Positions 7,965 through 30,951 of a stretch of 64,000 nt of DNA are shown here, piece by piece (position 1 is the first letter of the stretch; each line of letters starts with the position of its first letter). This DNA is from Thermopolyspora flexuosa (GTDB taxonomy: Bacteria; Actinomycetota; Actinomycetes; Streptosporangiales; Streptosporangiaceae). The notes beneath the pieces were generated by a model that saw only the letters and a list, made by a program, of their open reading frames with translations, did no database searches and was not told the DNA's origin. The stretch spans positions 1 through 64,000 of the forward strand of contig NZ_VFPQ01000001.1 in assembly GCF_006716785.1 (NCBI RefSeq), in the 5' to 3' direction. Both the position numbers and the translations under genes were made by a program.

Positions 7965-8417
7965 ATGACCGCACGCATGAACATCGCCGAGCTCGAGCCC
8001 GGCGCGTACCAGGCGATGCTCGGCCTGGAGAAGTACCTGAGCCGGTCCACGCTGCCGAAGTCGTTGCGGTACCTGGTGGAGCTGCGGGCCAGCCAGATCA
8101 ACGGCTGCGCCTACTGCGTGGACATGCACAGCCGCCAGGCGAAGGCGGAGGGGGAGAGCGACGCGCGGCTGCACGCGGTCGCGGTGTGGCGCGAGGCGCC
8201 GTTCTTCGACGAGCGGGAGCGCGCGGCCCTGGAGCTCACCGAGGCGGCCACCCGGCTGAGCGACGGCCACGGGGTGCCCGACGACGTGTGGCAGCAGGCC
8301 GCGAAGCACTTCGACGAGCACGAGCTCGCCCAGCTCGTGGTGCTGATCGCCACGATCAACGCGTGGAACCGGATCGGCGTCACCACGCACATGGTGCCCG
8401 AGTCCTACAAGGGCTGA
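7965..8417 (+). CDS. AhpD-like carboxymuconolactone decarboxylase family protein
   Basis: A 150-aa all-alpha protein of the CMD/AhpD family. The CxxC-x3-H active site is visible as GCAYCVDMHS (Cys48, Cys51, His55), which marks the alkylhydroperoxidase branch rather than true decarboxylases, so a thiol-dependent peroxidase or antioxidant role is likely. A Shine-Dalgarno (GAGAGGAG, 7951-7958) precedes ATG 7965 at good spacing, which argues against the longer frame from 7842. Divergent from the MocR gene, which probably controls it, and followed by a strong hairpin at 8440. Confidence 0.87.
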   Translation: MTARMNIAELEPGAYQAMLGLEKYLSRSTLPKSLRYLVELRASQINGCAYCVDMHSRQAKAEGESDARLHAVAVWREAPFFDERERAALELTEAATRLSDGHGVPDDVWQQAAKHFDEHELAQLVVLIATINAWNRIGVTTHMVPESYKG

Positions 8418-8439
8418 GCGAATCCGGCCGGACACGAGG

Positions 8440-8478
8440 GGCGGCGGTGCGTACGGGGACCGCACCGCCGCCTTCGTC
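8440..8478 (+). terminator. hairpin terminator after the AhpD-like gene
   Basis: GGCGGCGGTGCG (8440-8451) and CGCACCGCCGCC (8461-8472) form a perfect 12-bp stem with a 9-nt loop, followed by TTCGTCGT, 23 bp past the stop codon. The remaining bases up to the MarR operator at 8726 hold no gene that I can support. Confidence 0.7.
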
Positions 8479-8725
8479 GTGCCGGGCCGTGGATGGTTTC
8501 GTGCCTCGTGGCGGTTGAAGTGATGGGTGGTTCGTCCGAGCTAATGGCGATACGCGCAGTGTGAGCCGATATCGGGGGCTTGCTTCGCATACGGGCGGAT
8601 GTTCGGGTCATCCTGGAAGGACGGCGCCGAGGCCCGGCGGGTCGTCGGATGGGGGACGGCGGTGCACCGGCGGAGGCTCGGGAGCCGCGCCCTGCCGGAA
8701 GGGGAATAGGATGACGGACCCGATT

Positions 8726-8753
8726 GTTAGCAAAGGTAATGACTTATGCTAAC
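8726..8753. promoter_or_regulatory. candidate MarR autoregulatory operator spanning the start codon
   Basis: GTTAGC (8726-8731) and GCTAAC (8748-8753) form a perfect inverted repeat with a 16-bp centre that includes the ATG of the marR-like gene (8746). MarR proteins bind palindromes of about this size in their own promoters. Overlap with the start codon implies repression at or just after transcription initiation, possibly on a nearly leaderless transcript. Confidence 0.55.
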
Positions 8754-9195
8754 GAATTCACCCAAGACGAGCCTGCGCGGCGATGCGAGGCTGGCCTCGG
8801 CGCTGCGCGTATCCCTGACCAGGCTCAACCGGCGGCTACGAAGGCAGGCCGCCGGGCACTCGCTGACACCCACCCAACTCGCGACGCTTGCCGCCGTGGA
8901 GCGGCATCCCGGAGTGACCCCCGGCGAGCTGGCCGAGCACGAGAAAATGCAGCCGCCGTCGATGACCCGGGTGATCTCCGTGCTCGTCGAACGCGGATTG
9001 GTCGAGCGCACACCGCACCCGACCGATCGTCGCCAGGTGACCGTGACCTGCACCGAGGCAGGGGCCGCGCTGCTGCGCCGGGAACGGCAGATGAAAGAGG
9101 CCTGGCTCGCGCAGCGGCTGAAGGAGCTCTCGCCGGAGGAGCGGGAGGCGCTGCGGGCGGCGGCGCCGGTGCTGGAGAAGCTGTCCCAGATGTAG
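8746..9195 (+). CDS. MarR family transcriptional regulator
   Basis: A 149-aa winged-helix repressor. The recognition region LTPTQLATLAAVERHPGVTP and the wing VERTPHPTDRRQVTVTCTEAG (each quoted only in part of the conserved block) give the standard MarR pattern DRRxxxVxLTxxG. The start ATG 8746 lies inside a palindrome and has only a weak upstream AAAGG. An MFS exporter follows 20 bp downstream, so this is a typical MarR-MFS operon in which the regulator probably senses a toxic compound exported by the transporter. Confidence 0.88.
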   Translation: MLTNSPKTSLRGDARLASALRVSLTRLNRRLRRQAAGHSLTPTQLATLAAVERHPGVTPGELAEHEKMQPPSMTRVISVLVERGLVERTPHPTDRRQVTVTCTEAGAALLRRERQMKEAWLAQRLKELSPEEREALRAAAPVLEKLSQM

Positions 9196-9215
9196 GCGCG
9201 GGCGGTCCACAGGCT

Positions 9216-10673
9216 GTGGACGACCCGGAGGGCGAACCCGAAGCCCGGCCGGTGGACGGCGCGCCCCGGGCGGCGGCGGACGCCACGGCGGCCGGCCGTA
9301 CCGGCGCGGTGCCCGCGCCGCGGCACCCCGGCGACGCGCCGGTCGCGCCCGCCGAGGCCGAGGTACGGCCGGGCCGTACCGGTGCGGACGACGCCGAGGC
9401 CGAGGCCAAGGCCGCCAAGGAGCACGGCGGCATGTTCCGGTCGCTGCGCATCCGCAACTACCGGCTGTACGCCACGGGCGGCGTGGTCTCGAACGTCGGC
9501 ACCTGGATGCAGCGCACCGCCCAGGACTGGCTCGTGCTCGACCTCACCGGGGGCAGCGGCACCGCGCTCGGCCTGACCACCGCACTGCAGTTCCTCCCGG
9601 TGCTGCTGTTCGGCCTGTGGGGCGGCGTGATCGCGGACCGGTACCCGAAGCGGCCGCTGCTCGTGATCGCGCAGACCCTCATGGGCCTGCTCGCGCTCAC
9701 CACCGGCGTGCTCGTGGTGACCGGCACCGCGCAGGTGTGGCACGTCTACCTGATGGCGTTCGCCCTCGGGCTCGTGGCCTGTGTGGAGACCCCGACCCGC
9801 CAGTCGTTCGTGGTGGAGATGGTCGGCCCCGACGACCTCACCAACGCGATCGCGCTCAACAGCTCGAGCTTCAACCTGGCCCGGGTGGTCGGCCCGGCCG
9901 TCGCCGGCATGCTCATCTACTGGCTCGGCGGCACCGGACCGATCTTCCTCATCAACGCGGCCTCGTTCGCCGCGGTGATCGGTGGCCTGCTGCTCATGCG
10001 CCGCTCCGAGCTCCACCCCGCCCCGCCGGTGCCCCGGCGCAAGGGCCAGCTCCGCGAGGGCCTGCGCTACGTACGGCAGAGCCCCGAGCTGCTCATGCCG
10101 GTCATCGTCGTGGCCTTCATGGCGCTGTTCATGCAGAGCTTCTCGACGAGCATCGCGCTCATGGCGCGGCAGGAGTTCGGCCAGGGCGCGTCCTCGTTCG
10201 GCATCGCCTCGAGCGCGTTCGCCATCGGCGCGCTCGCCGGTGGCCTCATGGCCGCGCGGCGGCGGCGCCCCACCCGGCGGCTGCTGCTCGGCGGCGCGGC
10301 GTGCTTCGGGCTGGGCCAGATCGTGGCCGGGCTCGCCCCGGTCTACCTCGCCTTCCTCGTGCTGCTCGTGCCGGTCGGCATGGCGCTCATCACCGCGAAC
10401 ACCACGGCGAACGCCACCCTGCAGCTCGGCGCCTCGCCCGAGATGCGCGGCCGGGTCATGGCCCTGTTCACCCTCGTGTTCACCGGCGGCGCGCCCATCG
10501 GGGCCCCGCTCATCGGCTGGATCGCCGAGATGGCGGGCCCGCGCGTCGGCATGATGGTCGCCGGCCTGCTCTGCCTCGCCGGCATCGCCTCCGCCCCGAT
10601 GCTCACCCGGCTGATCGCCGGCCGGCGGCGCACGTCATCGCGCGTCGCCGTCGCCGCGGGCCACGCCTCCTGA
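9216..10673 (+). CDS. MFS transporter (MFS_3/EntS-like) with disordered N-terminal extension
   Basis: Predicted 12-helix major facilitator, probably a drug or siderophore exporter. The core starts at MFRSLRIRNYRLY (9432) and includes GTWMQRTAQDWLV, GGVIADRYPKRPLL (loop 2-3 motif A) and ETPTRQSFVVEMV, which are typical of the EntS-like MFS_3 group. GTG 9216 is chosen because the 72 codons before 9432 keep strong G/C-ending codon use and the spacing to the MarR stop (9195) is only 20 bp. They encode an Ala/Pro/Glu-rich disordered segment. ATG 9432 has a good Shine-Dalgarno (AAGGAG, 9417-9422), so a shorter 413-aa product from there is quite possible. Confidence 0.82.
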   Translation: MDDPEGEPEARPVDGAPRAAADATAAGRTGAVPAPRHPGDAPVAPAEAEVRPGRTGADDAEAEAKAAKEHGGMFRSLRIRNYRLYATGGVVSNVGTWMQRTAQDWLVLDLTGGSGTALGLTTALQFLPVLLFGLWGGVIADRYPKRPLLVIAQTLMGLLALTTGVLVVTGTAQVWHVYLMAFALGLVACVETPTRQSFVVEMVGPDDLTNAIALNSSSFNLARVVGPAVAGMLIYWLGGTGPIFLINAASFAAVIGGLLLMRRSELHPAPPVPRRKGQLREGLRYVRQSPELLMPVIVVAFMALFMQSFSTSIALMARQEFGQGASSFGIASSAFAIGALAGGLMAARRRRPTRRLLLGGAACFGLGQIVAGLAPVYLAFLVLLVPVGMALITANTTANATLQLGASPEMRGRVMALFTLVFTGGAPIGAPLIGWIAEMAGPRVGMMVAGLLCLAGIASAPMLTRLIAGRRRTSSRVAVAAGHAS

Positions 10674-10704
10674 CCGCCCGGCCCGCGCCGGTCCGTCCCG
10701 CGAC

Positions 10705-10728
10705 CCCCGCGGCCTCCGCGCCGCGGGG
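10705..10728 (+). terminator. hairpin after the MFS gene
   Basis: CCCCGCGGC (10705-10713) and GCCGCGGGG (10720-10728) form a perfect 9-bp stem with a 6-nt loop, 31 bp after the MFS stop. No U tract. Confidence 0.55.
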
Positions 10729-10778
10729 TGCGGGCGGCCCCGATGAAACATCCACGTCGATGCCATGTCGCAGAATCG

Positions 10779-10832
10779 TCACGAGATGAGATCGTGATTT
10801 CCATTGACAGGGAAACGCGGGTGTAACAGGAT
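10779..10832 (+). promoter_or_regulatory. possible promoter with upstream dyad in a 550-bp gene-free stretch
   Basis: The stretch 10674-11228 has no supportable gene. It contains a TCACGA-N7-TCGTGA dyad (10779-10797) followed by a consensus -35 TTGACA (10804-10809) with CAGGAT 17 bp downstream. Whether this drives the DUF574 gene 400 bp away, a small RNA or nothing cannot be told from sequence. Short open frames here have irregular codon use and were not accepted as genes. Confidence 0.3.
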
Positions 10833-11228
10833 TCGCGCAGGCCGGAAAGTCGTGCGCACGCGTATTCGGGTGTGCCGCCTGCACCGTCATCGCTTCCGCG
10901 ACACCCGCCGCCCACTTCCGCGGGGCCTCGGGGCAAAGCGCCCGGGGATCGTGCGGCAAGCGAAATGCGCGGGACGGCGGCGCCGTATTCCGCGTACGAA
11001 AACGGCGTACGACCTTTGGGTACGGCCGCTTGGCGCCCTCGACCGGGCCGCCGGGTCGGGCGGCCCCGTCCGGCAGGTGATCGGGCCGGTCACCGCGCCT
11101 ACCGGGGCGGGGCAGGGCCTGCGCCGCCGTGCCGTACGGCCAGTGCACCATCGTTGCCCTTTTTCGCGACTGTTTTGTGAAGGTGAGCGGCGTATCCTGG
11201 GTGCCCGGCCTTTTATCTAGGGGGATTC

Positions 11229-12032
11229 GTGGGTGAGAGGTCGCTTCCGACGTTCGATCCATCGACACCGGCGGAGCCGCGCATCTACAACTACCTGCTC
11301 GGCGGCAAGGACAACTTCGCGGTCGACCGCGAGGTCGCCGACAAACTGGTCTCGAAGCGGCGGTATATCGGACGCTGGCAGTACCCCGCCATCGAAAACC
11401 GGCGCTTCATGGAGCGTGCCGTCCGCCACCTCGCCGAGGCGGGCGTCCGCCAGTTCATCGACGTCGGCTGCGGCTTCCCCACGGAGAAGGACAACGTCCA
11501 CCAGATCGCCCAGGCCGTCGACCCCTCGGCCCGGGTCGTGTACGTCGACTACGACCCCGAGGTCCACGTGCACTTCCGCACCATGCTCGACGGCGTCCCG
11601 AACACCGTGGCGATCCGCGCGGACGCCCGCGGCCCCAAGGAGATCCTCGCCCACCCCGACCTGACCGCCCTGATCGACCTCGCCGAGCCGGTCGCGATCC
11701 TCCTCATCGCCATCCTCCACCACATCCCCGACGAGGACGACCCCGACGGCGTCGTCGCCTGCTTCCGGGACGCCATGGCCCCCGGCGGCTACCTCGTCAT
11801 CTCCCACCTGACCAGCGACGGCCCACCCCCCATCGCCGCCCGCCGCTTCGAGCAGGCCTTCGAACCCGTCCGCGAGTCGATGACGTTACGCACCCGCGAC
11901 CGCATCCGCTCCTTCTTCGGCGACCTCGAACTGATCGACCCCGGCCTCGTCGACGGCGGCCACTGGCGCCCCGACGAGGACGAAACCCCACCCTCCAACT
12001 GGCTCGCGGTCGGCGTGGCCAAGAAGCCTTAG
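11229..12032 (+). CDS. DUF574 S-adenosyl methyltransferase (Methyltransf_19)
   Basis: A 267-aa protein of the actinobacterial DUF574 family, which has a SAM-dependent methyltransferase fold and is often found in many paralogous copies; substrates are unknown. Visible signatures are ARIYNYLLGGKDNF-like PRIYNYLLGGKDNFAVD at the N-terminus, the SAM-binding loop FIDVGCGFPTE (about residues 77-87), VVYVDYDPEV, and ILHHIPDEDDP. GTG 11229 is preceded by a GGGGG stretch as ribosome site. It stands alone, and the distal end of CRISPR array 1 begins only 57 bp past its stop. Confidence 0.88.
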   Translation: MGERSLPTFDPSTPAEPRIYNYLLGGKDNFAVDREVADKLVSKRRYIGRWQYPAIENRRFMERAVRHLAEAGVRQFIDVGCGFPTEKDNVHQIAQAVDPSARVVYVDYDPEVHVHFRTMLDGVPNTVAIRADARGPKEILAHPDLTALIDLAEPVAILLIAILHHIPDEDDPDGVVACFRDAMAPGGYLVISHLTSDGPPPIAARRFEQAFEPVRESMTLRTRDRIRSFFGDLELIDPGLVDGGHWRPDEDETPPSNWLAVGVAKKP

Positions 12033-12089
12033 CCCGGTCTGCCGAGCGTCCCAGGGCGGAGAGCGCGATAACACCCAGCGTGCCTAAGT

Positions 12090-15000
12090 AACGCACCCCC
12101 ACGTGCGTGGGGAGGACTCAGGAACGAGGCCCGGGATTACGCGTTCCAGCGGCTCACCCCCACGTGCGTGGGGAGGACGTCGGAGGCCGCGTCGGCGGTC
12201 TCCGACGTGCCGGCTCACCCCCACGTGCGTGGGGAGGACCACGTCCCGGATCGCCTCGACGTGCCGGGCGGCGGCTCACCCCCACGTGCGTGGGGAGGAC
12301 TAGACGCTGACGGCATGATCAGGCTCCGGGAAAGGCTCACCCCCACGTGCGTGGGGAGGACCCGAGGTCGAGCGCGATGGTGTCGGCCAGCGCCGGCTCA
12401 CCCCCACGTGCGTGGGGAGGACGCCGGCACCGACCGGGCGAAACTGGTGAACGCCGGCTCACCCCCACGTGCGTGGGGAGGACCGGGCCTTGAGCGGGCC
12501 CGTGGCCAGGTGGACCGGCTCACCCCCACGTGCGTGGGGAGGACGCCCCGCCCTCCCCTCTGGGGTTGGGCGGGGCCGGCTCACCCCCACGTGCGTGGGG
12601 AGGACTCCACCTCGACCCGGGCGCGGACCGTTGCGACCGGCTCACCCCCACGTGCGTGGGGAGGACTCGATCGCAGCCGCGTTTCGCTCGGCCGGGTCCG
12701 GCTCACCCCCACGTGCGTGGGGAGGACGCGAGTTTCCAGCCGCCTGCCTTGTTGATGGCCGGCTCACCCCCACGTGCGTGGGGAGGACGTCACCGTTTGG
12801 CCCGCCTGCGCCGGGCCGTCCGGCTCACCCCCACGTGCGTGGGGAGGACCCCCAGCGGGGCGCTGGGGGCCGTCTGGGGGGCGGCTCACCCCCACGTGCG
12901 TGGGGAGGACGTCGGCTTGGTCGGCGTCGGTCCATGGCCGGTCGGCTCACCCCCACGTGCGTGGGGAGGACGGAAAGATCGTCATCGTGTTCCGGTTCTG
13001 ATCCGGCTCACCCCCACGTGCGTGGGGAGGACGACAACTCGCGCAGCCGCTGCCCGTAGGTCGCCGGCTCACCCCCACGTGCGTGGGGAGGACAGCCGGA
13101 TAGCCTGTCGGGTGTCCTTGCGCGACGGCTCACCCCCACGTGCGTGGGGAGGACGATAGCCCGACGGAAGGTCTCCGCCGCTTCTTCGGCTCACCCCCAC
13201 GTGCGTGGGGAGGACGCAAGTCCCTGGTCACGGGCCTGGTCGCTCACCGGCTCACCCCCACGTGCGTGGGGAGGACAGCACCCCGTCGGCGACCAGCCGA
13301 CCGAGCTGCGGCTCACCCCCACGTGCGTGGGGAGGACTTTCGCCCACCCCCAGCCTCTTGTAATTTCTGCGGCTCACCCCCACGTGCGTGGGGAGGACCG
13401 TGTATGGCTGAACTCGGGACATTGGCCCGCCGGCTCACCCCCACGTGCGTGGGGAGGACGGCCTGCTCGGCGAGCCGGCGCAGCCGGTGCGCGGCTCACC
13501 CCCACGTGCGTGGGGAGGACGGCCGGGGGTGGCTCCTCATCAGCTGGCAGGACGGCTCACCCCCACGTGCGTGGGGAGGACCAGCGCGGACGGCTGGTCA
13601 GCATCCCGCTGATCGGCTCACCCCCACGTGCGTGGGGAGGACTTTCGCGGGCCGTGGCTGTCGCTGGTCGGGCTCGGCTCACCCCCACGTGCGTGGGGAG
13701 GACCGCTGACGCCGAGCCGTGCCGCCGCTGTGTGCGGCTCACCCCCACGTGCGTGGGGAGGACGAAACTTCGCTCAGCCAAGCGCGCTCTGGAGTGGCTC
13801 ACCCCCACGTGCGTGGGGAGGACCGGCGGGGGCGGGGGTCGTGCGCGCGGACCAGCGGCTCACCCCCACGTGCGTGGGGAGGACCGGAACCGGCGCCGGT
13901 AGGTGCGCCAGTGCGCCGGCTCACCCCCACGTGCGTGGGGAGGACGGGCACAACTCCGGGTTGCCCGCCTCCGGAATCGGCTCACCCCCACGTGCGTGGG
14001 GAGGACGGCTTTTTGTCCGCCTCTGGGGCGGAAGTGAACGGCTCACCCCCACGTGCGTGGGGAGGACCTCCCGGATCAGGAGCAGCCCGGCTCCGTACGC
14101 GGCTCACCCCCACGTGCGTGGGGAGGACACTGACTACATCGCGCGTCGCCTGGCCGTCGACGGCTCACCCCCACGTGCGTGGGGAGGACGGCATCTTCAC
14201 CGCGGGTTTCTCGAACAGCGCAGGCTCACCCCCACGTGCGTGGGGAGGACCCCAGCCGACACACACCCCCTCTGACCTGCGGCGGCTCACCCCCACGTGC
14301 GTGGGGAGGACGGCCAGTCCTTGCCGAGCACGCTGCCGGCGTGCGGCTCACCCCCACGTGCGTGGGGAGGACGAAGGCCTTCGGCAGGTCGCCGCCGAAC
14401 CCGGCGGCCTCGGCTCACCCCCACGTGCGTGGGGAGGACGCGGCCGAGGCGGCCTTCCGGGCGGTGGACGACGGCTCACCCCCACGTGCGTGGGGAGGAC
14501 TGGCTGGGCGGAACGTAGGTCGCCTCGTACAGCGGCTCACCCCCACGTGCGTGGGGAGGACGCCGATGTTCTCGGCCGGGGTGGCCGAGAAGATGGCTCA
14601 CCCCCACGTGCGTGGGGAGGACGATCGGTCTTCCATCCGAGGATCCGTCGTACGCGGCTCACCCCCACGTGCGTGGGGAGGACAAGATCGCCAAGGACAA
14701 CGGCATAACCGACGCCGGCTCACCCCCACGTGCGTGGGGAGGACATGGCCGCGATCGACTCGGACGACCGGACAAACGGCTCACCCCCACGTGCGTGGGG
14801 AGGACATCGCGGCGTACCGCGGCGGGCGGCCGGAACGCGGCTCACCCCCACGTGCGTGGGGAGGACTGCACGTACATGCCGATGCGGACGGCCGCCTGCG
14901 GCTCACCCCCACGTGCGTGGGGAGGACGATCCCGGACGACCGCACATTCCCCGAACTCCGGCTCACCCCCACGTGCGTGGGGAGGACGGCTCGCTGCCGG

Positions 15001-15292
15001 TGGCGATGCGCCGGGACACCGGCTCACCCCCACGTGCGTGGGGAGGACACCACCCGGTCGAAGGCGCGGTCCGACACCGACGGCTCACCCCCACGTGCGT
15101 GGGGAGGACTCCCGCACAGCGCGGAGATCCGCGCCAGACGGCGGCTCACCCCCACGTGCGTGGGGAGGACGTGTCCAGCGCGCCGACGATGGCTTTGATC
15201 TGCGGCTCACCCCCACGTGCGTGGGGAGGACTCGATCGGCCTCGGCCAGCGTTCCCGCTCGGCCGGCTCACCCCCACGTGCGTGGGGAGGAC
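12090..15292 (-). CRISPR. CRISPR array 1 (type I-E), 53 repeats and 52 spacers, read leftward
   Basis: Fifty-three copies of a 28-bp repeat at a period of 61 bp; the palindromic core, in crRNA sense, is CCCCACGCACGTGGGG, followed by GTGAGCC. crRNA sense is the minus strand because the only degenerate copy (12090-12117) is at the left end and the other end abuts the cas3-side leader. The base after the repeat, in crRNA sense, is G for 48 of 52 spacers, as expected for type I-E where the last repeat base comes from the PAM. Most spacers are 33 nt; three are 32 nt and one (14373-14411) is 39 nt. Spacer 14068-14100 is identical to one in array 2. Open reading frames through the array encode only a repeat translation and are not genes. 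Confidence 0.98.
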
Positions 15293-15493
15293 CCTTCGCG
15301 ACCTGCGATGTTATCGGAGCGCTGTCGAGTTTTCGAGAGGGCAGCAGGTCTTGGGTCGGCGAATGTTGACATAATCGTGAACGTTGTACACGTCTGGCAA
15401 AACTATGAAATTGTCGCCATCAGGGTCTAGAGTGATTGGCCATCACATGACGTACATGTCGCCTGTAGCTGGGCTTGAGCTGAGGCAGGTGGT
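15293..15493. promoter_or_regulatory. array 1 leader and divergent cas operon promoter region
   Basis: This 201-bp gene-free stretch is distinctly more AT-rich than its surroundings and lies between the newest repeat of array 1 (15265-15292) and the cas3 start. It must contain the leader and promoter of the leftward array and the promoter of the rightward cas operon. TTGACA at 15366-15371 is a possible -35 element. Next to the repeat the leader carries, in crRNA sense, GCAGGTCGCGAAGG, similar at 10 of 14 positions to the bases next to the first repeat of array 2. Confidence 0.7.
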
Positions 15494-18223
15494 ATGGCCG
15501 ACAGTCCAGATGTTGATCTTGAGCTGTGGGGCAAATCCCGAGGGTTACGGGGCAGCAGGTACCCGCTGATCTGCCACCTACTCGACACGGCCGCCGCGGC
15601 AGAGGCGCTGTGGGACGGCTACATCTCCCCCGGCTTGCGGCGGGTTGTGGCCGCCGAGCTTGGCGTGGACGAAGGGCGGGCGCGTGGCCTGTTGGCCTAC
15701 TGGGCCGGGTTGCATGACATCGGTAAGTGCACGGCGGGGTTTCAGAAGCAGGACGAGGATGGATTCGCGCGGCTCAACGGCTATCCGAGCGTAGATGCCG
15801 AGGCGATTAAACATGCGTTCGCCGCTCATGTGTGGCTGGGGCAGGCCTTAGTGGGTGCCGGGTATCGCACCGGCCGCAAATCGGCGCCGGCCTTCCGGGT
15901 CGCTCAGTTGCTCGGCGGGCACCATGGGACATTCGCCCCCTTCAACCACTGGGAGTTCACCGACCCGCTTGGCTCGGTCCCGGCTCTCGGCGAGGGGCGT
16001 TGGGAGGAACAGCGTCAGGCGATCGCCGAAACGGTGTATGAGCTGGTGGGGCGACCGGAGCCGCCGCAGCGGATCTCCGCCGCCGGAGCCGCGCTGGCGT
16101 GTGGTCTGGTGATCCTCGCGGACTGGCTGGTCAGCCAGGACTCCTTCCTGCTCGAGCGAATCGGGGAAGGGCTTCCGAAACGCGGCGACGTCTCCGGTCT
16201 GAAGCGCCACCTGAGTCGTAGTCGGGCGGTGCTCCCGGCGGTGCTGCGCGAGGCCGGACTGGGGCGGCTCGGCTTCAAGCCGGGCGGGTTCACCGACGAC
16301 TTCCCGTTCCAGCCGAATGACCTGCAGAAATCGCTCAGTGAGCGACTGCCCGCCCTCCTCGACGGGGATCCAGGTCTGCTGTTGATCACCGTGCCGATGG
16401 GGGAGGGGAAAACCGAGGCGGCCTTATTCGCGGGCAGGCTCATGGGCGAGGCGGCGGGGATGCCGGGCTACTTCTTCGGCCTGCCCACCATGGCAACCTC
16501 GGATCAGATGTTGCGGCGGGTGGACGAGTTCCGCTCACGCCGGGTCGAAGGGGCCGATTCCCTGACCCTTCTCCACAGCATGGCCTGGCTGAACGCCGCC
16601 TACACGGGTGAGGGCGAGGAATCCGGCGTCCTGACCAGCGATCCGATGGCGGCTCGTTGGTTGATGGGCAGCAAACGCGGGCTGTTGGCCAATCTCGCGG
16701 TAGGCACGATCGACCAGGCGCTGCTGGCCGTACTGCGGGGCAGGCACAACGTACTCCGGATGCTCGGCCTGTCCGGGAAAGTCCTGATCGTCGATGAGGT
16801 GCACGCCTATGACGCGTTCATGCAAGGCCTGCTCAAGCGGCTTCTGGAATGGCTGGGGGCGTTGCGGGTTCCGGTCGTGCTGTTGTCGGCCACGCTCCCG
16901 GCGGGAGTGGGCCGCCGGTTGGCCGAGGCGTACCTCGTAGGGGCGGGCATCCGCGACCCGCAGGTGCCGCAGGTCGTCTATCCGGGCTGGATCTACGCCA
17001 GCCCGAAGCATGCGGCGTCGGTGCCGGTGCGGTGCCCGGAACGGCGCTTGCGGGTTGAGACTCGGGACGTGCCTCTCGATGCCGAGGGGCGGCCCGACCG
17101 GTCCGCAGCTCTTCGGGAAGCCCTCGGCCCATTGGTCCGCGAGGGGGGCTGTGCGGCGGTCATCTGCAACACCGTCGCCGAAGCGCAGCTCACCTATCTG
17201 GCCCTGCGTGAGTGGCTCGACGAGGTCGTGCCGGCCGAGGCGGACGCACCGCAGTTGCGGCTGCTGCACTCGAGGTTCGAGGCTCATCGGCGCGAGAAGA
17301 TCACCCAGGAGGTGGTGAGCTGGTTCGGCAAGGACGCCGCGGACCGCTCCCGCCGGTCGGCGATCCTGGTCGCCACGCAGGTGATCGAGCAATCGCTGGA
17401 TCTGGACTTCGATCTGGTCGTGAGCGATCTGGCGCCGATCGCCCTGCTGCTGCAACGGGCGGGCCGGTGCCACCGGCATGCCAAGTTCGATGCCGAACGG
17501 CCGCAGTGGGCGAGGGACATGCGGCTGGTGGTGCTCAACCCCGTCGACGCCGACGGAAAGCCGGTGGTGCCACGGGCATGGCCGTTCGTCTACCCCGCCG
17601 CGCTGCTTCGCCGTACCCGGGAGGTGCTCGCGCGCCTGCCGGAGGGGCGGGTGATCATTCCCGGCGACGTCCAGGGTTTGGTCGATCAGGTATACGACGA
17701 GTCTTTCGGTGATGCGGACACCCCGATCACCGAGGAGGACCTGGAGCGGCTCGCGGATGAGCAGACCAAGGACCTCTACGCGCAGATGGCGGCGATCCCG
17801 GCCCCGCTCGGTATCGACGACCTGTCGAAGCTGAGCGGCGACGACTTCGTGACGGAGTACTCCACCCGCTTGGGGGCCGACTCCGGGCGCATCGTCTGCT
17901 GCACGAGGGACGCCGACGGCCGGCTCATGCTCGGTGACGAGTCGCTTCCCGTGGACCCGCAGGGCAAGAAGGGCGACCGAACCTGGTTCACGAAAGACCA
18001 GGTACGGCTGGTGCTGAACCACAGCATTCCGGTCCCCGGCACGTGGCTGCGTGGCGCGTCCGACGGTGCGGCGACCCCGCCCACGTGGGCCGCGAGTCCG
18101 CATCTCAGCGAGATCGTGGTGGTCGAGCTGTCCGGAGAGCAGGGTGTGGGTCTACTCGGGGATCGCGAGGTTCGTCTGTGCAAGGACCTCGGATTGTCGG
18201 ACCTGCCCGCTGGCGTCTGCTGA
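15494..18223 (+). CDS. cas3: CRISPR-associated helicase/nuclease Cas3 (type I-E)
   Basis: The 909-aa effector nuclease-helicase that Cascade recruits to degrade target DNA. The N-terminal HD nuclease has CHLLDT (His28), LHDIGK (His74-Asp75) and GGHHG (His143-144). The SF2 helicase follows, with Walker A GEGKTE (303-308), DEVHAYD (434-440), LLSATLP, QVIEQSLDLDFDLVVSD and LLQRAGRCHRH. ATG 15494 follows a weak GGCAGGTGG. It is the first gene of the cas operon, 29 bp before cas8e. All catalytic motifs are present, so it should be active. Confidence 0.97.
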   Translation: MADSPDVDLELWGKSRGLRGSRYPLICHLLDTAAAAEALWDGYISPGLRRVVAAELGVDEGRARGLLAYWAGLHDIGKCTAGFQKQDEDGFARLNGYPSVDAEAIKHAFAAHVWLGQALVGAGYRTGRKSAPAFRVAQLLGGHHGTFAPFNHWEFTDPLGSVPALGEGRWEEQRQAIAETVYELVGRPEPPQRISAAGAALACGLVILADWLVSQDSFLLERIGEGLPKRGDVSGLKRHLSRSRAVLPAVLREAGLGRLGFKPGGFTDDFPFQPNDLQKSLSERLPALLDGDPGLLLITVPMGEGKTEAALFAGRLMGEAAGMPGYFFGLPTMATSDQMLRRVDEFRSRRVEGADSLTLLHSMAWLNAAYTGEGEESGVLTSDPMAARWLMGSKRGLLANLAVGTIDQALLAVLRGRHNVLRMLGLSGKVLIVDEVHAYDAFMQGLLKRLLEWLGALRVPVVLLSATLPAGVGRRLAEAYLVGAGIRDPQVPQVVYPGWIYASPKHAASVPVRCPERRLRVETRDVPLDAEGRPDRSAALREALGPLVREGGCAAVICNTVAEAQLTYLALREWLDEVVPAEADAPQLRLLHSRFEAHRREKITQEVVSWFGKDAADRSRRSAILVATQVIEQSLDLDFDLVVSDLAPIALLLQRAGRCHRHAKFDAERPQWARDMRLVVLNPVDADGKPVVPRAWPFVYPAALLRRTREVLARLPEGRVIIPGDVQGLVDQVYDESFGDADTPITEEDLERLADEQTKDLYAQMAAIPAPLGIDDLSKLSGDDFVTEYSTRLGADSGRIVCCTRDADGRLMLGDESLPVDPQGKKGDRTWFTKDQVRLVLNHSIPVPGTWLRGASDGAATPPTWAASPHLSEIVVVELSGEQGVGLLGDREVRLCKDLGLSDLPAGVC

Positions 18224-18252
18224 CGCCGACCGTCCTTAGGTGCGAGAGTGCG

Positions 18253-19791
18253 ATGTCCTACGACTTACTGACCCGTGCTTGGATCCCGGTACGGGAAGGC
18301 GAGACCCGCTCGAAGATCGGCCTCCGAGAGCTATTCCTGCGTGCGCACGAGCTGACGGACATCGAGGCGTCACCCCCACCTGCCGCGTCCGGGCTGTGGC
18401 GGGCGCTGACGGTGATGGCCGCGCGCATTACCGGCCTGGACGACACGTCCCTGCCCATCGAGGAGTGGGGCGAGCTGCAGGGCGAGGTGTTGGACGCAGG
18501 GCGGTTCGATCCGGCCGCGGTGGAGAAGTACTTCGCCAAATTCGCGGGGCGCTTCGACCTGTTCGACGAGGACAGGCCGTGGCTGCAGGATCCCCGGCTC
18601 CGGGAGCAGTGCAAGACGAGCTCGGGCGTGAACAAGCTGGTCCTCTACCGTCCCGCCGGCAACAACCAGGTGTGGTTCAACCACGTGACCGCCCGGAACC
18701 CGCTCCCGGTTCCGGCCGACGAGGCCGTGTTCCACCTGCTGATTCAGCTCTATTACGGTCCGTCCGGCCAGTGCACGCCGAGGACGGTGAACGGAGTATC
18801 GGAGAGAAACACCAAGGCCGGGCCGCTGCGGAGGACGCTTTCGTTCCACCCGCTCGGCCGTACCGTGTTCGAGTCGCTCGTCGCCGGTATCCCTCCGGCA
18901 CGCGAGCTCGATACGGGAGGTGTGGATCTCGCTCCTTGGGAGGCCGACGAGCTACCGGACCCCCTGGGCGTGCCGCCCAAGCCGAGCGGCATCGCGGGTG
19001 TTCTGACCGGCCGGTTCCAGCACGCCGTGCTGCTGGAGGGTTCTCCGGACGGGGAATCGGTGACCGATGCCTGGATTACATGGGCGTGGCGGAATCGGGA
19101 CCTCCCGGCCAGGGATCCCTACCTCGTCTACCACCAGACCAAGGACGGGGAATACCTGCCGCTCTCGGCCGAGGCGCATCGGGCGCTCTGGCGGGACTTC
19201 GACTCGCTGATCCTGGAGGACGTGGGCGACGACCGTCGGCGTCGCCCCGTGGTGCTGGCAGCGGTCGAGGATCTGCGGGGCACGCTGCTGCCCGTGCTAC
19301 GTGTCCGGGCCTTCGGTGTCGACCAGGACGGCCAGACGCGGGACAAGGAGTGGGTCACAGGTGTGACCCCTGCGCTGCTGGCCTTGGCGCGGGAACCGGA
19401 AGTGGCGCGGGCGGTCAGCGAGATGCGGCAGGCGGCCGAGCGGGTCGAGGTTCACCTCCGGGGCGCGTTGCGTCAGGCCTGGATTGCGATCAACGACCCC
19501 TCCAACGGCGATGGCAAACCCCAACGCAAGGACATCTCCGAGGGGCCATGGCCTGGGAACGCGTCGTTCCGGTACTGGCCGCGCGCCGAGCGGATCTTCT
19601 GGCGGCGGGTGCGCGAGCGGGAGTTCGGCCGGGCGGTGGAGGAGTTCCTGCGGCTGGCGCTTGAGATCTATGACGAGGTGACCGACAGCGCGGGCATGCT
19701 GCCGCGGGCCAAGCGAGCCATCGAGCTTAAACGCGGACTGATCTTCAAAACTCGCAAGCCGGGTGGCAAGACCGGCCGAGGTGACGGGTGA
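18253..19791 (+). CDS. casA: Cascade large subunit Cas8e (Cse1/CasA)
   Basis: The 512-aa large subunit of the type I-E Cascade complex, which recognises the PAM and recruits Cas3. MSYDLLTRAWIPVR at the N-terminus, FDLFDEDRPWLQDP, and a QLYYGPSGQCTPRT-like loop in place of the E. coli L1 region identify the family. The length is normal for Cse1. The start at ATG 18253 gives the standard N-terminus. Its TGA overlaps the cse2 ATG by one base (TGATG), indicating translational coupling. Confidence 0.96.
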   Translation: MSYDLLTRAWIPVREGETRSKIGLRELFLRAHELTDIEASPPPAASGLWRALTVMAARITGLDDTSLPIEEWGELQGEVLDAGRFDPAAVEKYFAKFAGRFDLFDEDRPWLQDPRLREQCKTSSGVNKLVLYRPAGNNQVWFNHVTARNPLPVPADEAVFHLLIQLYYGPSGQCTPRTVNGVSERNTKAGPLRRTLSFHPLGRTVFESLVAGIPPARELDTGGVDLAPWEADELPDPLGVPPKPSGIAGVLTGRFQHAVLLEGSPDGESVTDAWITWAWRNRDLPARDPYLVYHQTKDGEYLPLSAEAHRALWRDFDSLILEDVGDDRRRRPVVLAAVEDLRGTLLPVLRVRAFGVDQDGQTRDKEWVTGVTPALLALAREPEVARAVSEMRQAAERVEVHLRGALRQAWIAINDPSNGDGKPQRKDISEGPWPGNASFRYWPRAERIFWRRVREREFGRAVEEFLRLALEIYDEVTDSAGMLPRAKRAIELKRGLIFKTRKPGGKTGRGDG

Positions 19792-20459
19792 TGGTGAATC
19801 TGAAGGTAGCGGACGCATACGTGGCCCATGTCCGCAGGCAGGTGCGGGAACCGGGACGGCGCGCGGCCCTGCGCCGAAGTCTGGGGCGGCCCGTGGAGGA
19901 CGTCGTCACTCGCCTCGCACACGCCGTGGTCGCTCCGTGGCTGCCCGCCGACCGGACCTGGCATGCGGTGGAGAGGGCCTATTACTCGGTCGCCGCGCTG
20001 ATCGCCGCGCAGCCACGTGACCGACAGAGTGCGAACACGACGGCGGAGCCGGACGAGGAGGAGAGCGTCAGCGAACCGTCGTCCGACGAGAGGGCCGGCG
20101 ACGACAGCGCTAAGGCGGCGACAAAGGCGATCCAGCGGCCAACGGTGAGCCTCGGCGGCACACTCGGCCAGGCCGTACGCGACAAGAAACTCAACGCCGA
20201 CTCGATAGAGGCCCGGCTCCACCTGCTGTGCCGGCAGGACGTCGCCGGGCTGCACCGGATGCTGCCCGGTCTGTTCCACCAGATGGCCGCCAAGGAGGTC
20301 ACCCCCGACTGGGGGCGGCTCCTGGTCGATCTGGCCCGGTGGGAGCGTGATCGCGACCACGTGACCAAGCGGTGGCTACAGGACTACTACCGGGCGATCC
20401 ACAGAGACGACGAGCACGAGCAGACCGACGACAACGACTCAGAGAGCGAGGACCGGTGA
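19791..20459 (+). CDS. casB: Cascade small subunit Cse2 (CasB) with acidic insert
   Basis: Small subunit of type I-E Cascade; it forms the belly dimer that stabilises the R-loop. The 222-aa product has Cse2 signatures ERAYYSVAALIAA and RLHLLCRQDVAGLHRMLP, and LLVDLARWERDRDHVTKRWLQDYY near the end (quoted in part). A roughly 35-residue Glu/Ser/Asp-rich stretch (about residues 76-108) separates the two helical halves and makes it longer than the 160-190 aa usual for the family. ATG 19791 overlaps the casA stop; GTG 19788 is an equivalent alternative, with GAGGTGA upstream. Confidence 0.95.
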   Translation: MVNLKVADAYVAHVRRQVREPGRRAALRRSLGRPVEDVVTRLAHAVVAPWLPADRTWHAVERAYYSVAALIAAQPRDRQSANTTAEPDEEESVSEPSSDERAGDDSAKAATKAIQRPTVSLGGTLGQAVRDKKLNADSIEARLHLLCRQDVAGLHRMLPGLFHQMAAKEVTPDWGRLLVDLARWERDRDHVTKRWLQDYYRAIHRDDEHEQTDDNDSESEDR

Positions 20460-21577
20460 CCACCCCGCGATTCTTGGACGTGCATGCCCTGCAGACCGTG
20501 CCGTTCGCGAACCTCAACCGCGACGATCTGGGCTCGCCGAAGAGCCTGGTGTACGGCGGGGCCACCCGGACCCGGGTGTCGAGCCAGTGCTGGAAGCGCG
20601 CCATTCGGCTGGAAGTCGAGCGGGCCATCGGGGACCCGGCGGTCAGGACGCGCCGGGTACCGGCCGAGATCGCGGCGCGGCTGCGGGCCCGCGGCTGGTC
20701 CGAGGAAGCGGCGCAGGCCGCGGGGAATCAGGTCGTGCTGTCGGCCAACAAGAAGGAAGGGCTGAAGCTGGAGGACAACGGCGGCACATCGGTGCTGCTG
20801 TACCTGCCCAAGGCGGCGCTCGACGCCCTGGCCGATCTGGCCGAGGAGCATCGGGAGGCGATCGAGACGACCATCGGGCAGAAGAAGCCGAAGCCGGTGC
20901 TGCCGGTGGACAGGGTCGGTGAGCTGCTGTCGGAACGCAACGGCGTCATCAACCTGTTCGGGCGGATGCTGGCCGAGCTGCCCGGGGCGGGGGTGGACGG
21001 TGCGGTACAGGTCGCGCACGCGTTCACCACGCACGAGGTGGCGCCGGAGATCGACTTCTTCACCGCGGTGGATGACTGCCTGCCCGAGGACGCTGTCGGC
21101 AGCGGCCACATGAACAGCGCGGAGTTCAGCGCCGGCGTGTTCTATCGGTACGCCAGCGTGGACCTTGCGGGGCTGCTGGCCAACCTGGGCGGGGACGCTT
21201 GCATGGCCAAGGAGCTGTCCTCCGAGTTCTTGCGTGCGTTCATCTCCTCGCTGCCGACCGGCAAGCAGACGGCCACGGCCGCCAACACACTGCCCGATCT
21301 GGTGCACGTGGTGGTGCGTACGGACCGGCCGATCTCGTACGCGGCCGCGTTCGAAGCGCCGGTCCGCCCGGAGAACGGCATCGCCGAGCCGTCCCGGGCC
21401 CAGCTCGCCCGGCATGCCGCGCGGCTGGAGCGGCTGTGGGGCACGAAGGGCGTCGTGTATCGCGGCTACGCGTGCATCGACGAGAAGCCGCTGAGCGGGC
21501 TGGGGGACCCGGTGGAGTCCTTCGACGAGCTGGTCGAGGGGGCCGTGACGGCCGCGTACGGAGGTTCCGCGCAGTGA
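20456..21577 (+). CDS. casC: Cascade backbone subunit Cas7e (CasC/Cse4)
   Basis: The 373-aa RAMP protein that forms the helical backbone along the crRNA. FLDVHALQTVPFANLNRDD, TRTRVSSQCWKRAIR and DFFTAVDDCLPEDAVGSGHMNSAEFS (in part) are hallmark Cas7e blocks. GTG 20456 overlaps the cse2 stop by 4 bp (GTGA). Length and motifs are normal. Confidence 0.96.
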   Translation: MTTPRFLDVHALQTVPFANLNRDDLGSPKSLVYGGATRTRVSSQCWKRAIRLEVERAIGDPAVRTRRVPAEIAARLRARGWSEEAAQAAGNQVVLSANKKEGLKLEDNGGTSVLLYLPKAALDALADLAEEHREAIETTIGQKKPKPVLPVDRVGELLSERNGVINLFGRMLAELPGAGVDGAVQVAHAFTTHEVAPEIDFFTAVDDCLPEDAVGSGHMNSAEFSAGVFYRYASVDLAGLLANLGGDACMAKELSSEFLRAFISSLPTGKQTATAANTLPDLVHVVVRTDRPISYAAAFEAPVRPENGIAEPSRAQLARHAARLERLWGTKGVVYRGYACIDEKPLSGLGDPVESFDELVEGAVTAAYGGSAQ

Positions 21578-22314
21578 GCGGCCTGGTGCTGCGGCTGGCC
21601 GGGCCGCTGCAGTCCTGGGGCGAACACAGCGTGTTCGCCCAGCGCGACAGCCTGCGCTTCCCGACCCGATCGGGGCTCATCGGCCTGCTGGCCTGCGCCG
21701 AAGGGCTGCCGCGTGGCGCGCCTCTGGCCCGTTACGATGCGCTGCGGTTCACCGTGCGGATCGACCGTCCCGGCGTGCGGATGGTGGACTTCCACACCAT
21801 CGGAGGCGGCATGCCGAAGGGCGTACCCCGGCCCGACGGCAACCAGCGCCCGGGTGGGCCCAACGCTATGGTGACTCGGCGCCAGTATCTGGCGGACGCC
21901 GTGTTCACCGTGGCCGTGGAGGGCCCGACGGATCGGCTGGCCGAGATCGCCGAGGCGCTGCGCAACCCCCGCTGGCACCCGTACCTGGGGCGACGCTCCT
22001 GCCCGCCGGACCAACCGCTGCTGCTGCGGGCGGACGTGGCCGATCCCGTGGGCGAGCTGCACACCCGGGTGCCGGTTGCGCGGCGACTGCGTGAGCAGGA
22101 ACCGCCTGAGGCGGAGTTCGTGGTCGAGGATCACCCGGACGCCGCCGGCGCGGTCACCGAAGTTGCCGACGTCCCGCTGAGCTTCAACCGGTACGACCGG
22201 CGGTATCGCACGCGGACGGTGAGCATCGTCAGCCGATCGCTGCCGAAGGAGCTGTTCGTGACCGGCGAGCGGTTCTGGGAGCGGCTCGTTGCCTACATGG
22301 AGGAGGAGCGGTGA
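21574..22314 (+). CDS. casD: Cascade subunit Cas5e (CasD)
   Basis: A 246-aa RAMP that caps the 5' handle of the crRNA. The N-terminal LVLRLAGPLQSWGEHSVF is diagnostic, followed by PTRSGLIGLLACAEG. GTG 21574 overlaps the cas7 stop by 4 bp (GTGA). Normal length. Confidence 0.96.
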   Translation: MSGLVLRLAGPLQSWGEHSVFAQRDSLRFPTRSGLIGLLACAEGLPRGAPLARYDALRFTVRIDRPGVRMVDFHTIGGGMPKGVPRPDGNQRPGGPNAMVTRRQYLADAVFTVAVEGPTDRLAEIAEALRNPRWHPYLGRRSCPPDQPLLLRADVADPVGELHTRVPVARRLREQEPPEAEFVVEDHPDAAGAVTEVADVPLSFNRYDRRYRTRTVSIVSRSLPKELFVTGERFWERLVAYMEEER

Positions 22315-22937
22315 CGGCCTGGCTGATGCGCATCCTGCCCGACCTGCGCCGCCGGGACGTCAACGACGACCTGGCCGACCTCGACCGGCTGCACAAGCGG
22401 TTGATGTCGCTCGTCCCCGACGGCCTGGGGGAGAACGCCAGGGCCAAGGCCGGGGTGCTGTTCCGCCTCGAGGAGACCCGGCAAGGCATGCAGCTGCTGG
22501 TGCAAAGCACGGTGAAGCCCGACATCGGGCGGCTGCCGGACGGTTATGGGGAGATCGCGGTACGCGAACTGGGAGCGCTGCTGGATCGGCTGCGGCCCGG
22601 TGCGCGGGTGCATTACCGCATCGCCGCCAATCCCTCCAAGCGGCTCGGCAAGAGCGCGGGCAAGGACGCCGGCAAGGTGAAGCCGCTGCGGGGCGCCGCG
22701 GCCGAGGAGTGGTGGGTGACCAAGGCGGCATCGCACGGCCTGGCCGTCGCTACGGTGACCTCGCAGCCACGCCCGGACATCCGCGCCAAGGGCACCGCCG
22801 TGCGACACGCCGTGGTCCGGTTCGACGGAATCGGCGTGGTCACCGACCCCGACGCGCTGCGCGCAGCCGTACTGACCGGGATCGGCCGTGGCAAGTCCTA
22901 CGGCTGCGGGCTGCTGAGCCTGGCCTGGGCGCGATGA
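22311..22937 (+). CDS. casE: crRNA endoribonuclease Cas6e (CasE)
   Basis: A 208-aa two-ferredoxin-fold RNase that cuts the repeat hairpin and stays bound to the 3' handle. The C-terminal glycine-rich loop GIGRGKSYGCGLLSLA is intact and a candidate catalytic histidine lies in LDRLHKRL (His28). It presumably recognises the CCCCACGCACGTGGGG hairpin of both arrays. GTG 22311 overlaps the cas5 stop by 4 bp. Confidence 0.96.
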   Translation: MTAWLMRILPDLRRRDVNDDLADLDRLHKRLMSLVPDGLGENARAKAGVLFRLEETRQGMQLLVQSTVKPDIGRLPDGYGEIAVRELGALLDRLRPGARVHYRIAANPSKRLGKSAGKDAGKVKPLRGAAAEEWWVTKAASHGLAVATVTSQPRPDIRAKGTAVRHAVVRFDGIGVVTDPDALRAAVLTGIGRGKSYGCGLLSLAWAR

Positions 22938-23932
22938 CCGGAACCGCGCGGCGTAGACTCGCCGCCCCCACCCTGGCCATGCTGCCCAGGATCGCCGATT
23001 CGCTGTCGTTCCTGTACGCCGAGGCCGTGCGCATCGTGCAGGACGACACGGGAGTCTGCGCCCAGGTCGAGTCGCCCAAGGGGGTGGACCGGGTGAACCT
23101 GCCGACCGCCGCACTGGCCTGCATCCTGCTCGGCCCCGGCACCTCGATCACCCAGCCCGCGATGGCCACGATCGCCCGGCACGGCACCTCGCTGGTATGC
23201 GTCGGCGCCGGTGGGGTGCGCAGCTACGCGGGGATCATGCCGGCGTCGCTCACCACGCACTGGCTGGAAAAGCAGGTGCGCGCCTGGGCCGACGACCAAA
23301 CCCGCCTCCAGGTGGCGATCCGGATGTACGAGATGCGGTTCGGCGTCGGCACCGCACCCGCGGGCGCCACCCTCGCCAAGCTTCGCGGCCTGGAGGGCCA
23401 ACGAATCAAGGCCCTCTACCGGATGCTGGCGACCAAGCACGGCATCAAACGTTTCAAACGCAACTACGACCCGGACTCGTGGGACAGCCAGGACTCGATC
23501 AACAAGGCCATGTCGGGTGCCAACTCCTGCATGTACGGCGTCGTTCACGCTGCCGTGCTGGCGCTGGGCTGCTCCCCTGCACTGGGCTTCATCCACAACG
23601 GCACACAGATGTCCTTCGTCTACGACGTCGCCGACCTGTACAAGGCCCGGGTCACCATCCCACTCGCGTTCTCGTTGCACGCATCCGCCGATCCGGAGCG
23701 TGAGGCTCGGCGGCGGCTCCGGGAGGAGTTCCGCGCGCTGAAGTTACTGCCGCAGATCGTGGCCGACATCCAGACGCTGCTCGACCCCGAGAGTACTCCC
23801 GCAACGGCGGGCGACCGCAGCGTCGATGTGGTCCACCTCTGGGATCCGCATCTCGGCCCGCTTCCCGCCGGTGTGAACTATGGCGTTGATTCCTTTGACG
23901 CATACGACTCGTTCGACCTGCAGGTGGAGTGA
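22934..23932 (+). CDS. cas1: adaptation integrase Cas1e
   Basis: A 332-aa metal-dependent integrase that, with Cas2, inserts new spacers at the leader end. The catalytic residues are present: Glu154 (RGLEGQRIKALY), His221 (GFIHNGTQMSF) and Asp231/Asp234 (VYDVADLYK). ATG 22934 overlaps the cas6e stop by 4 bp (ATGA). Intact adaptation genes fit the length of the arrays and their uniform repeats. Confidence 0.97.
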   Translation: MTGTARRRLAAPTLAMLPRIADSLSFLYAEAVRIVQDDTGVCAQVESPKGVDRVNLPTAALACILLGPGTSITQPAMATIARHGTSLVCVGAGGVRSYAGIMPASLTTHWLEKQVRAWADDQTRLQVAIRMYEMRFGVGTAPAGATLAKLRGLEGQRIKALYRMLATKHGIKRFKRNYDPDSWDSQDSINKAMSGANSCMYGVVHAAVLALGCSPALGFIHNGTQMSFVYDVADLYKARVTIPLAFSLHASADPEREARRRLREEFRALKLLPQIVADIQTLLDPESTPATAGDRSVDVVHLWDPHLGPLPAGVNYGVDSFDAYDSFDLQVE

Positions 23933-23935
23933 GCG

Positions 23936-24268
23936 ATGGCATCGATGGTCGTGATCTCCACTACGGCGGTCCCAGATCACGTAAACGGAGCGTTATCACG
24001 CTGGCTAATCGAGCCGTGTCCCGGGCTTTTCGTGGGCACGGTATCCGCCCGTGTGCGCGACGAACTCTGGTCGGCGGTCAGTGCGAGCGTGGGCGACGGC
24101 ATGGCCGTCCTCATCCACCCGGCCGACAACGAGCAGGGTTTCGCGCTACGCACGTCGGGTCAACGTCGTCGACACGTAGTCGACTTCGACGGCCTCCAGT
24201 TGATCAAGTTCGCCGCCGAGACAACTGACACCTCATCTGATCAAGAAAAACCTCAAGTGAAAATGTGA
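23936..24268 (+). CDS. cas2: adaptation protein Cas2e with a C-terminal tail encoded by leader DNA
   Basis: A 110-aa Cas2e ferredoxin-like protein, the partner of Cas1. MVVISTTAVPDHVNGALSRW and FVGTVSARVRDELW (in part) are typical. The conserved part ends near DFDGLQLIKF; the last 17 or so residues (AETTDTSSDQEKPQVKM) are polar and look unlike the family, and their codons lie in the AT-rich DNA immediately upstream of array 2. The stop is only 18 bp from the first repeat. Confidence 0.95.
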   Translation: MASMVVISTTAVPDHVNGALSRWLIEPCPGLFVGTVSARVRDELWSAVSASVGDGMAVLIHPADNEQGFALRTSGQRRRHVVDFDGLQLIKFAAETTDTSSDQEKPQVKM

Positions 24269-24286
24269 AACCGCAGTTCAGGAAGT
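24200..24286 (+). promoter_or_regulatory. array 2 leader, largely inside the cas2 coding sequence
   Basis: Only 18 bp separate the cas2 stop from the first repeat of array 2, so any leader of ordinary length must overlap the 3' end of cas2. The stretch is AT-rich (GATCAAGAAAAACC, GTGAAAATGTGAAACC). Bases adjoining the repeat (GCAGTTCAGGAAGT) match those next to the first repeat of array 1 at 10 of 14 positions, which suggests a shared adaptation signal. Confidence 0.55.
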
Positions 24287-26383
24287 GTCCTCCCCACGCA
24301 CGTGGGGGTGAGCCGACGGTGACGTCGAGGAAACGGCCAGCGTTTTCGTCCTCCCCACGCACGTGGGGGTGAGCCGCCGGCCCATTCGATCTGTCCATCC
24401 CGGTCGATGTCCTCCCCACGCACGTGGGGGTGAGCCGCACTATGTTCCAGCATCACGGCTCTGACTGACGTCCTCCCCACGCACGTGGGGGTGAGCCGCC
24501 CAAGAAGGCCCAGCAGTACTCCCCTGAGGAGTCCTCCCCACGCACGTGGGGGTGAGCCGGCCCGCGCGGCGCGGGCCGCGAGCAAGGGAGGGTCCTCCCC
24601 ACGCACGTGGGGGTGAGCCGTAGATGCGGACACGGTGGTCGGTGCCGCGGCAGTCCTCCCCACGCACGTGGGGGTGAGCCGGCCGTGGGCCTGGCCGCCT
24701 CGTCGAGGCCTGCGTCCTCCCCACGCACGTGGGGGTGAGCCTGCACTCTGGACCGCGCCGATCACTTGATTCGTGTCCTCCCCACGCACGTGGGGGTGAG
24801 CCGGTAGCCAATCGCATCGGCGGAGAGACTACGTAGTCCTCCCCACGCACGTGGGGGTGAGCCGGGTGACGCACCCACCCCCGAGAGCGTCACCCCGTCC
24901 TCCCCACGCACGTGGGGGTGAGCCGCGCGTCATCGAGCTCGTGATCAAGGGTGACGCGTCCTCCCCACGCACGTGGGGGTGAGCCGCCGTCCTCTTGTCG
25001 GCACCGGTGACCTGGCCGGTCCTCCCCACGCACGTGGGGGTGAGCCGGTGGCGGCACCCTTAGGCGGGTAGAGGTTGATGTCCTCCCCACGCACGTGGGG
25101 GTGAGCCGTATGAGGGCGACCACAGATGGTTCCGGTGTGTGTCCTCCCCACGCACGTGGGGGTGAGCCGCCGCGCACAACGCCGGCGCTCAACGTCCGGT
25201 AGTCCTCCCCACGCACGTGGGGGTGAGCCTCGACCACATCCGCTACCTACAGCAGGTCGGCCGTCCTCCCCACGCACGTGGGGGTGAGCCGGTGTTGTGC
25301 AGCACCTGGATCAGCGGCACACCGTCCTCCCCACGCACGTGGGGGTGAGCCGGACCCGCTGGTCGCGACGCTGGCGGCGACGGAGTCCTCCCCACGCACG
25401 TGGGGGTGAGCCGCGTCCGGTGCCCTTGCAGTTGCCGCACTTGACGTCCTCCCCACGCACGTGGGGGTGAGCCGCGGACGGCGTCCATCGTGCGATCCTT
25501 TCTGTAGTCCTCCCCACGCACGTGGGGGTGAGCCGAGGACCTACCACTGCCCGAACCCCGACTGCCGGTCCTCCCCACGCACGTGGGGGTGAGCCTTCAA
25601 CGGGCAGCGCGTCAACACGCGCGTCATCGTCCTCCCCACGCACGTGGGGGTGAGCCGCGTACGGAGCCGGGCTGCTCCTGATCCGGGAGGTCCTCCCCAC
25701 GCACGTGGGGGTGAGCCGATGGAGCGGCGCAACACCGGCCCGGCACGGCTGTCCTCCCCACGCACGTGGGGGTGAGCCGGCCGGCCTGCGCCCCACCGAC
25801 GTCGTCGCCCAGTCCTCCCCACGCACGTGGGGGTGAGCCGGCCCGGGACATCGGCCCCGGGCCTTCGTGCTGGTCCTCCCCACGCACGTGGGGGTGAGCC
25901 GGTGGCTCATCGGAGAGACCTTTCTTGGTCAGGGTCCTCCCCACGCACGTGGGGGTGAGCCGCCGCCCTCACCCGCCCAAACCCGAGAGAGAGGGTCCTC
26001 CCCACGCACGTGGGGGTGAGCCGACCAGGTGGGTGGCGTCGCCCACTCGGCTGATGTCCTCCCCACGCACGTGGGGGTGAGCCGCCTTCGCATGAGCTGA
26101 GCCAGCTCATCGTGACGTCCTCCCCACGCACGTGGGGGTGAGCCGTCGGTCAGACCGAGCAGCTCGCGGACGCGGGGGTCCTCCCCACGCACGTGGGGGT
26201 GAGCCGCACATCGACGCCGTCGCGCAGGCCGCCCGGGAGTCCTCCCCACGCACGTGGGGGTGAGCCGACGCGCCCGAGCGCGGCCTGGAGGCCGCTACGG
26301 TCCTCCCCACGCACGTGGGGGTGAGCCGTCGATTCCGCAGACCAGCGGTTTGCTGGGGCTCCCAATACACGTGGGGGTGAGCC
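24287..26383 (+). CRISPR. CRISPR array 2 (type I-E), 34 intact repeats and one mutated repeat, read rightward
   Basis: Thirty-four intact copies of the same 28-bp repeat as array 1, on the plus strand, with starts every 61 bp from 24287 to 26300 and 33-nt spacers, followed by a copy with several mismatches at 26356-26383 after a shortened 28-nt spacer. The base after the repeat is G in 31 of 34 cases. The leader end is at cas2 and the right end decays, so the array grows at its cas-proximal end like array 1. Spacer 25657-25689 (number 23 from the leader) is identical to spacer 20 of array 1. Confidence 0.98.
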
Positions 26384-26672: not shown

Positions 26673-26801
26673 ATACGACGTTGTCGAGGTTCGGATTCGA
26701 GGCCTCGTTTTTCTCATTCCATGCGTGAGTTTTCGCCGGCGCCCGGCCCGGCTGACGTCGTCTTGCTCCGCGAGCTGCGCCGGCCGTGCCTGGGGATCGG
26801 G

Positions 26802-26838: not shown

Positions 26839-26844
26839 TGGGCG

Positions 26845-30950: not shown

Positions 30951-30951
30951 G

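Follow-up and report, generated by a model that had tools for sequence, protein, structure and literature searches.

Two arrays of one genome that use the same repeat can have spacers in common, and in a survey of such arrays 11.9% of those with a common consensus repeat in one genome showed some spacer overlap (PMC12814883). During primed adaptation by the type I-E system of E. coli, one protospacer is captured repeatedly with fixed boundaries, and single hot-spot protospacers each make up 5–8% of the acquired spacers (PMC6568314), so that the same site should be picked more than once. In P. atrosepticum one type I-F system feeds three arrays (PMC5059440). Independently acquired spacers of Sulfolobus islandicus resample the same viral site within unrelated array contexts (PMC2946923).

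The window considered here is the whole analysed stretch of 64,000 nucleotides from Thermopolyspora flexuosa, in which two arrays with a common repeat share a spacer. Unlike the overlaps of PMC12814883, the two have a single internal spacer in common, neither the last spacer nor a block. In S. islandicus the resampled sites are mostly found between strains and are mostly offset, whereas the match in the window is exact and lies within one genome. Compared with E. coli, a hot-spot reading of the window is made by analogy, the site being known here from the spacers alone.

Organisation of the locus

The cas genes lie on the forward strand. They comprise cas3 (15494–18223; HD and helicase, Pfam PF18019, PF22590 and PF18395), a probable cas8e/cse1 (18240–19664) assigned by position and size only to a 474-aa ORF without a Pfam match, cse2/cas11 (19788–20459; PF09485), a CT1975-like cas7e (20372–21577; PF09344, 368 bits), cas5e (21199–22314; PF09704), cas6e (22311–22937; PF08798), a cas1e domain match (22976–23782; TIGR03638, 347 bits, and PF01867) in a frame that extends to 23932, and cas2e (23936–24268; PF09707). 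The listed cas5e ORF begins upstream of its domain and its true start is uncertain. The predicted cas3, cse2, cas7e, cas5e, cas6e, cas1e and cas2e stand together in one operon, which identifies it as type I-E. A second type I-E cas1 is found at 2.89 Mb (L079, G000:C1:2878325-2898225), accompanied by arrays of its own that use a different repeat and in which some adjacent or nearby spacers are duplicated.

Both arrays of the window were parsed with the repeat GTCCTCCCCACGCACGTGGGGGTGAGCC. Array 1 (12090–15292, reverse strand) has 53 repeats, of which the last (12090–12117) is degenerate, and 52 spacers. Array 2 (24287–26444, forward strand) has 35 spacers between 36 repeats, and its last two repeats are degenerate. 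The arrays lie outside the operon, point outward from it and are mutually inverted. They are the only arrays in the genome that use this repeat, and their interior repeats are all identical. The parsed spacers number 87, of which 86 are distinct; the figure of 86 given in the initial annotation agrees with the distinct count. Of these spacers 82 measure 33 nt after a 28-nt repeat, giving a period of 61 nt, and the first base is G in 80 of the 87. By convention, type I-E repeats are counted as 29 nt with this PAM-derived G as their last base, which leaves 32 nt for the spacer proper. The 28/29-nt hairpin repeat, the 61-nt period and the PAM-derived first base are those of type I-E arrays.

The leader region of array 1 (15293–15493, reverse strand) occupies the interval between cas3 and the first repeat, while that of array 2 (24180–24286, forward strand) overlaps the 3' end of cas2. 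The second leader is only weakly like the first, with weak similarity near the repeat and none to speak of elsewhere.

Several irregularities were seen in the arrays. Spacer A1_15 (14373–14411) is 39 nt long, 6 nt over the standard 33. Beyond the recognised repeats of array 2, between 26445 and 26680, more decayed repeat-like stretches can be made out by eye, for example near 26475 and 26530. Spacers A2_10 (24864–24896), A2_11 (24925–24957) and A2_22 (25596–25628) overlap at their ends, by 9 and 10 nt with the first G counted and by 8 and 9 nt if it is left out; joined, they would cover 80 nt readable as one open frame (FNGQRVNTRVIELVIKGDAPTPESVT). These overlaps suggest that one site may have been sampled repeatedly, with the caution that in the family as a whole 9-nt overlaps are no commoner than expected by chance; a search for the source of the tiled stretch found none.

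The shared spacer

The spacer A1_20 (14068–14100, reverse strand; GCGTACGGAGCCGGGCTGCTCCTGATCCGGGAG) and the spacer A2_23 (25657–25689, forward strand) match at 33 of 33 nt in crRNA orientation, both boundaries included, as the initial annotation had stated. Parsing also bears out the ranks it gave, 20th and 23rd when counted from the leader, with 19 spacers on the leader side of the shared one in array 1 and 22 in array 2. The two copies are about 11.6 kb apart. They are the only occurrences of the sequence in the whole genome, and it was absent from the 99 relatives searched with it, allowing up to 3 mismatches.

When all 87 spacers were compared with one another on both strands, an alignment the initial annotation had proposed, the runner-up match between any two was 11 nt and no further pair exceeded that length. 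In 20 composition-preserving shuffles of the spacers the longest match was at most 15 nt. Chance identity of the pair was rejected on these figures. The spacers within two positions on either side of A1_20 and A2_23 agree at no more than 14 of about 32 positions, which is chance level and confirms the earlier impression that the adjoining spacers are not common to both arrays.

The common repeat would be expected if a whole array had long ago been duplicated and the pair were all that is left of it, the other common spacers having since been lost. However, the shared spacer is mid-array in both, and the oldest, trailer-end spacers differ between the arrays although they should be the last to be lost. 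The leaders, dissimilar apart from the weak similarity near the repeat, also speak against it. Such a duplication was rejected because no trailer-end spacers are common and the only pair longer than 11 nt is mid-array; we regard it as scarcely credible.

Comparison with a near relative

The same-genus genome G001 is 99.86% identical to the window at cas1-cas2 and at the covered part of cas3, and both of its leaders are identical to those of the window. In the assembled parts of its arrays the only spacers in common with the window are the leader-distal A1_52 (12118–12150, reverse strand) and A2_34 and A2_35 (26328–26416, forward strand), all at the trailer end. As the locus is nearly identical and yet only trailer-end spacers are common, both arrays must have turned over strongly. 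Comparing arrays in relatives had been put forward as a way to order the events; it yielded these trailer-end spacers, but the arrays of G001, split over several contigs and broken at contig ends inside the arrays, are too fragmented for ordering.

The four G001 pieces (L171, L169, L168 and L170) were aligned to window positions 8037–12088, 15293–18112, 20792–24286 and 26602–32001. Identity is 99.86–99.96% at cas3, cas1-cas2 and the flank to the right of array 2, and 86.7% to the left of array 1. A recent exchange between the two species may have involved the cas locus and the right flank.

Short reads make arrays difficult to assemble, and the broken arrays of G001 lend some weight to the thought that one copy of the shared spacer is an assembly artefact of the repetitive arrays. 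Against this, the 5.2-Mb contig that contains the window belongs to an assembly with 3 contigs and 99.99% completeness. A mis-join at a repeat would swap the tails of the arrays and would not make a second copy amid unrelated neighbours. Comparable pairs are moreover present in other genomes, including the single-contig G370. An artefact is for these reasons very improbable.

Frequency of shared spacers in the family

A cas1e search was carried out over 341 genomes of the family, from which 112 regions (up to 20 kb around cas1) and the four pieces of G001 were taken for parsing. In 113 sequences, 231 arrays with 5,379 spacers were recognised, and the base rate was calculated over the 88 sequences in which two or more arrays had at least three spacers each. 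At 6 of the 88 loci (about 7%, or roughly one in fifteen), the window counted, two arrays had at least one identical or near-identical spacer in common. The loci are those of G366, G000 (the window), G038, G224, G055 and G370; there are two such pairs in G370, and at all six loci only single units are shared, without shared neighbours in register. Between-array matches amount to about 8 per 100,000 spacer pairs across arrays. At the rate in the other loci 0.14 pairs would be expected for arrays of the size found in the window, and one pair is therefore unremarkable. For CRISPR adaptation with two arrays, the shared spacer is nothing out of the ordinary.

The G370 locus (L077), with arrays of 61 and 100 spacers, has two near-identical between-array spacers, several offset overlaps and distant within-array repeats, a pattern suggesting that the same elements were sampled more than once.

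A further pair was found in G050 (L145 and L164), where an identical 32-nt spacer occurs in arrays of two different type I-E systems on different contigs. The repeats of these arrays differ (CTGCTCCCCGCGCACGCGGGGATGGTCCC and GAACTCCCCGCCTGCGCGGGGGTGAGTCC), which makes a repeat-mediated exchange implausible; the simple reading of these sequences is that two systems captured one protospacer with the same PAM-set boundaries.

Origin of the shared spacer

We consider it probable that each of the two arrays received its copy from the same protospacer of one invader, in two separate captures. A single Cas1-Cas2 machinery would serve both leaders, and fragments from one infected cell or run of infections could enter either array. 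Capture is PAM-anchored and of fixed length, and a favoured protospacer taken twice would therefore have the same boundaries. Both arrays would later have gained about 20 spacers (19 and 22). That there was such a protospacer, that it was favoured and that both captures fell in one episode is what we infer from the pair. Given hot-spot picks in the I-E system of E. coli and one machinery feeding several arrays in the I-F system, double capture needs no special mechanism.

The exact identity including boundaries and the unrelated neighbours support double capture, as do the common repeat and the single I-E operon flanked by both arrays, the turnover of both arrays relative to the assembled parts of those in G001, the similar isolated pairs in G366, G038, G224, G055 and G370, and the identical spacer between different repeats in G050. 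Ranks as close as 20 and 23 give P = 0.13 for the window alone; combined over the same-locus pairs of the family, P is 0.34 with G370 and 0.12 without it. The ranks lean towards a common episode, not significantly, and rank concordance was for this reason rejected as proof of one episode.

What counts against double capture is in part that the identical interior repeats leave no marker that would speak against the copying of a single unit. In addition, SpacerPlacer assigned about 1% of the duplicate-type events in its data set to independent insertions and 86% to duplications, although its analysis is confined to array groups and does not compare the arrays of one genome with each other (PMC11472070).

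Instead, gene conversion or a double crossover at identical repeats could have carried a copy of one repeat-spacer unit from one array into its counterpart. The interior repeats are indeed all identical, the arrays are near each other and inverted, and within-array duplication is frequent in the family, although mostly of adjacent or near units. However, a single unit is common and not a block, and G050 has the same pattern despite its different repeats. Close ranks would not be favoured by random conversion, though their closeness is not significant, and a passage of PMC11472070, citing Kupczok et al., calls recombination between arrays rare. The initial annotation had named double capture, as a hotspot or primed event, and recombination between arrays as its two candidates, and had thought a simple block exchange unlikely; double capture is the better supported, and copying of the unit is unlikely.

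The protospacer was searched for in several ways. With blastn, the 33-nt sequence gave chance-level matches only against phages and plasmids. The best reading frame of the shared spacer is, as a guess from its codon composition only, AYGAGLLLIRE, and peptide-degenerate patterns for it had no match in IMG/VR or GTDB genomes. A relaxed 5' pattern hit 9 IMG/VR contigs, none above 26/33 identity, and exact 18-mers of the spacer hit 0 contigs and 1 contig (23/33). All spacers concatenated had no match to phages, and against the 341 family genomes they matched the array spacers of G001 and gave short partial matches judged to be chance. Thus no credible protospacer or PAM for the shared spacer turned up in phages, plasmids, IMG/VR, GTDB or the family genomes, a negative result that weighs against double capture.

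Conclusions

For telling capture from recombination, the pair in G050 is a more informative example than that of the window. That short-tract gene conversion copies single units between outward-facing I-E arrays is decidedly doubtful; if true, each array could serve as a backup for what the other has recorded. On the favoured reading of double capture, the pair in the window adds another natural case of a two-array I-E system that recorded one invader site twice, and it matters little alone. The survey of the family gives a usable base rate for such pairs, six among 88 loci with at least two arrays.
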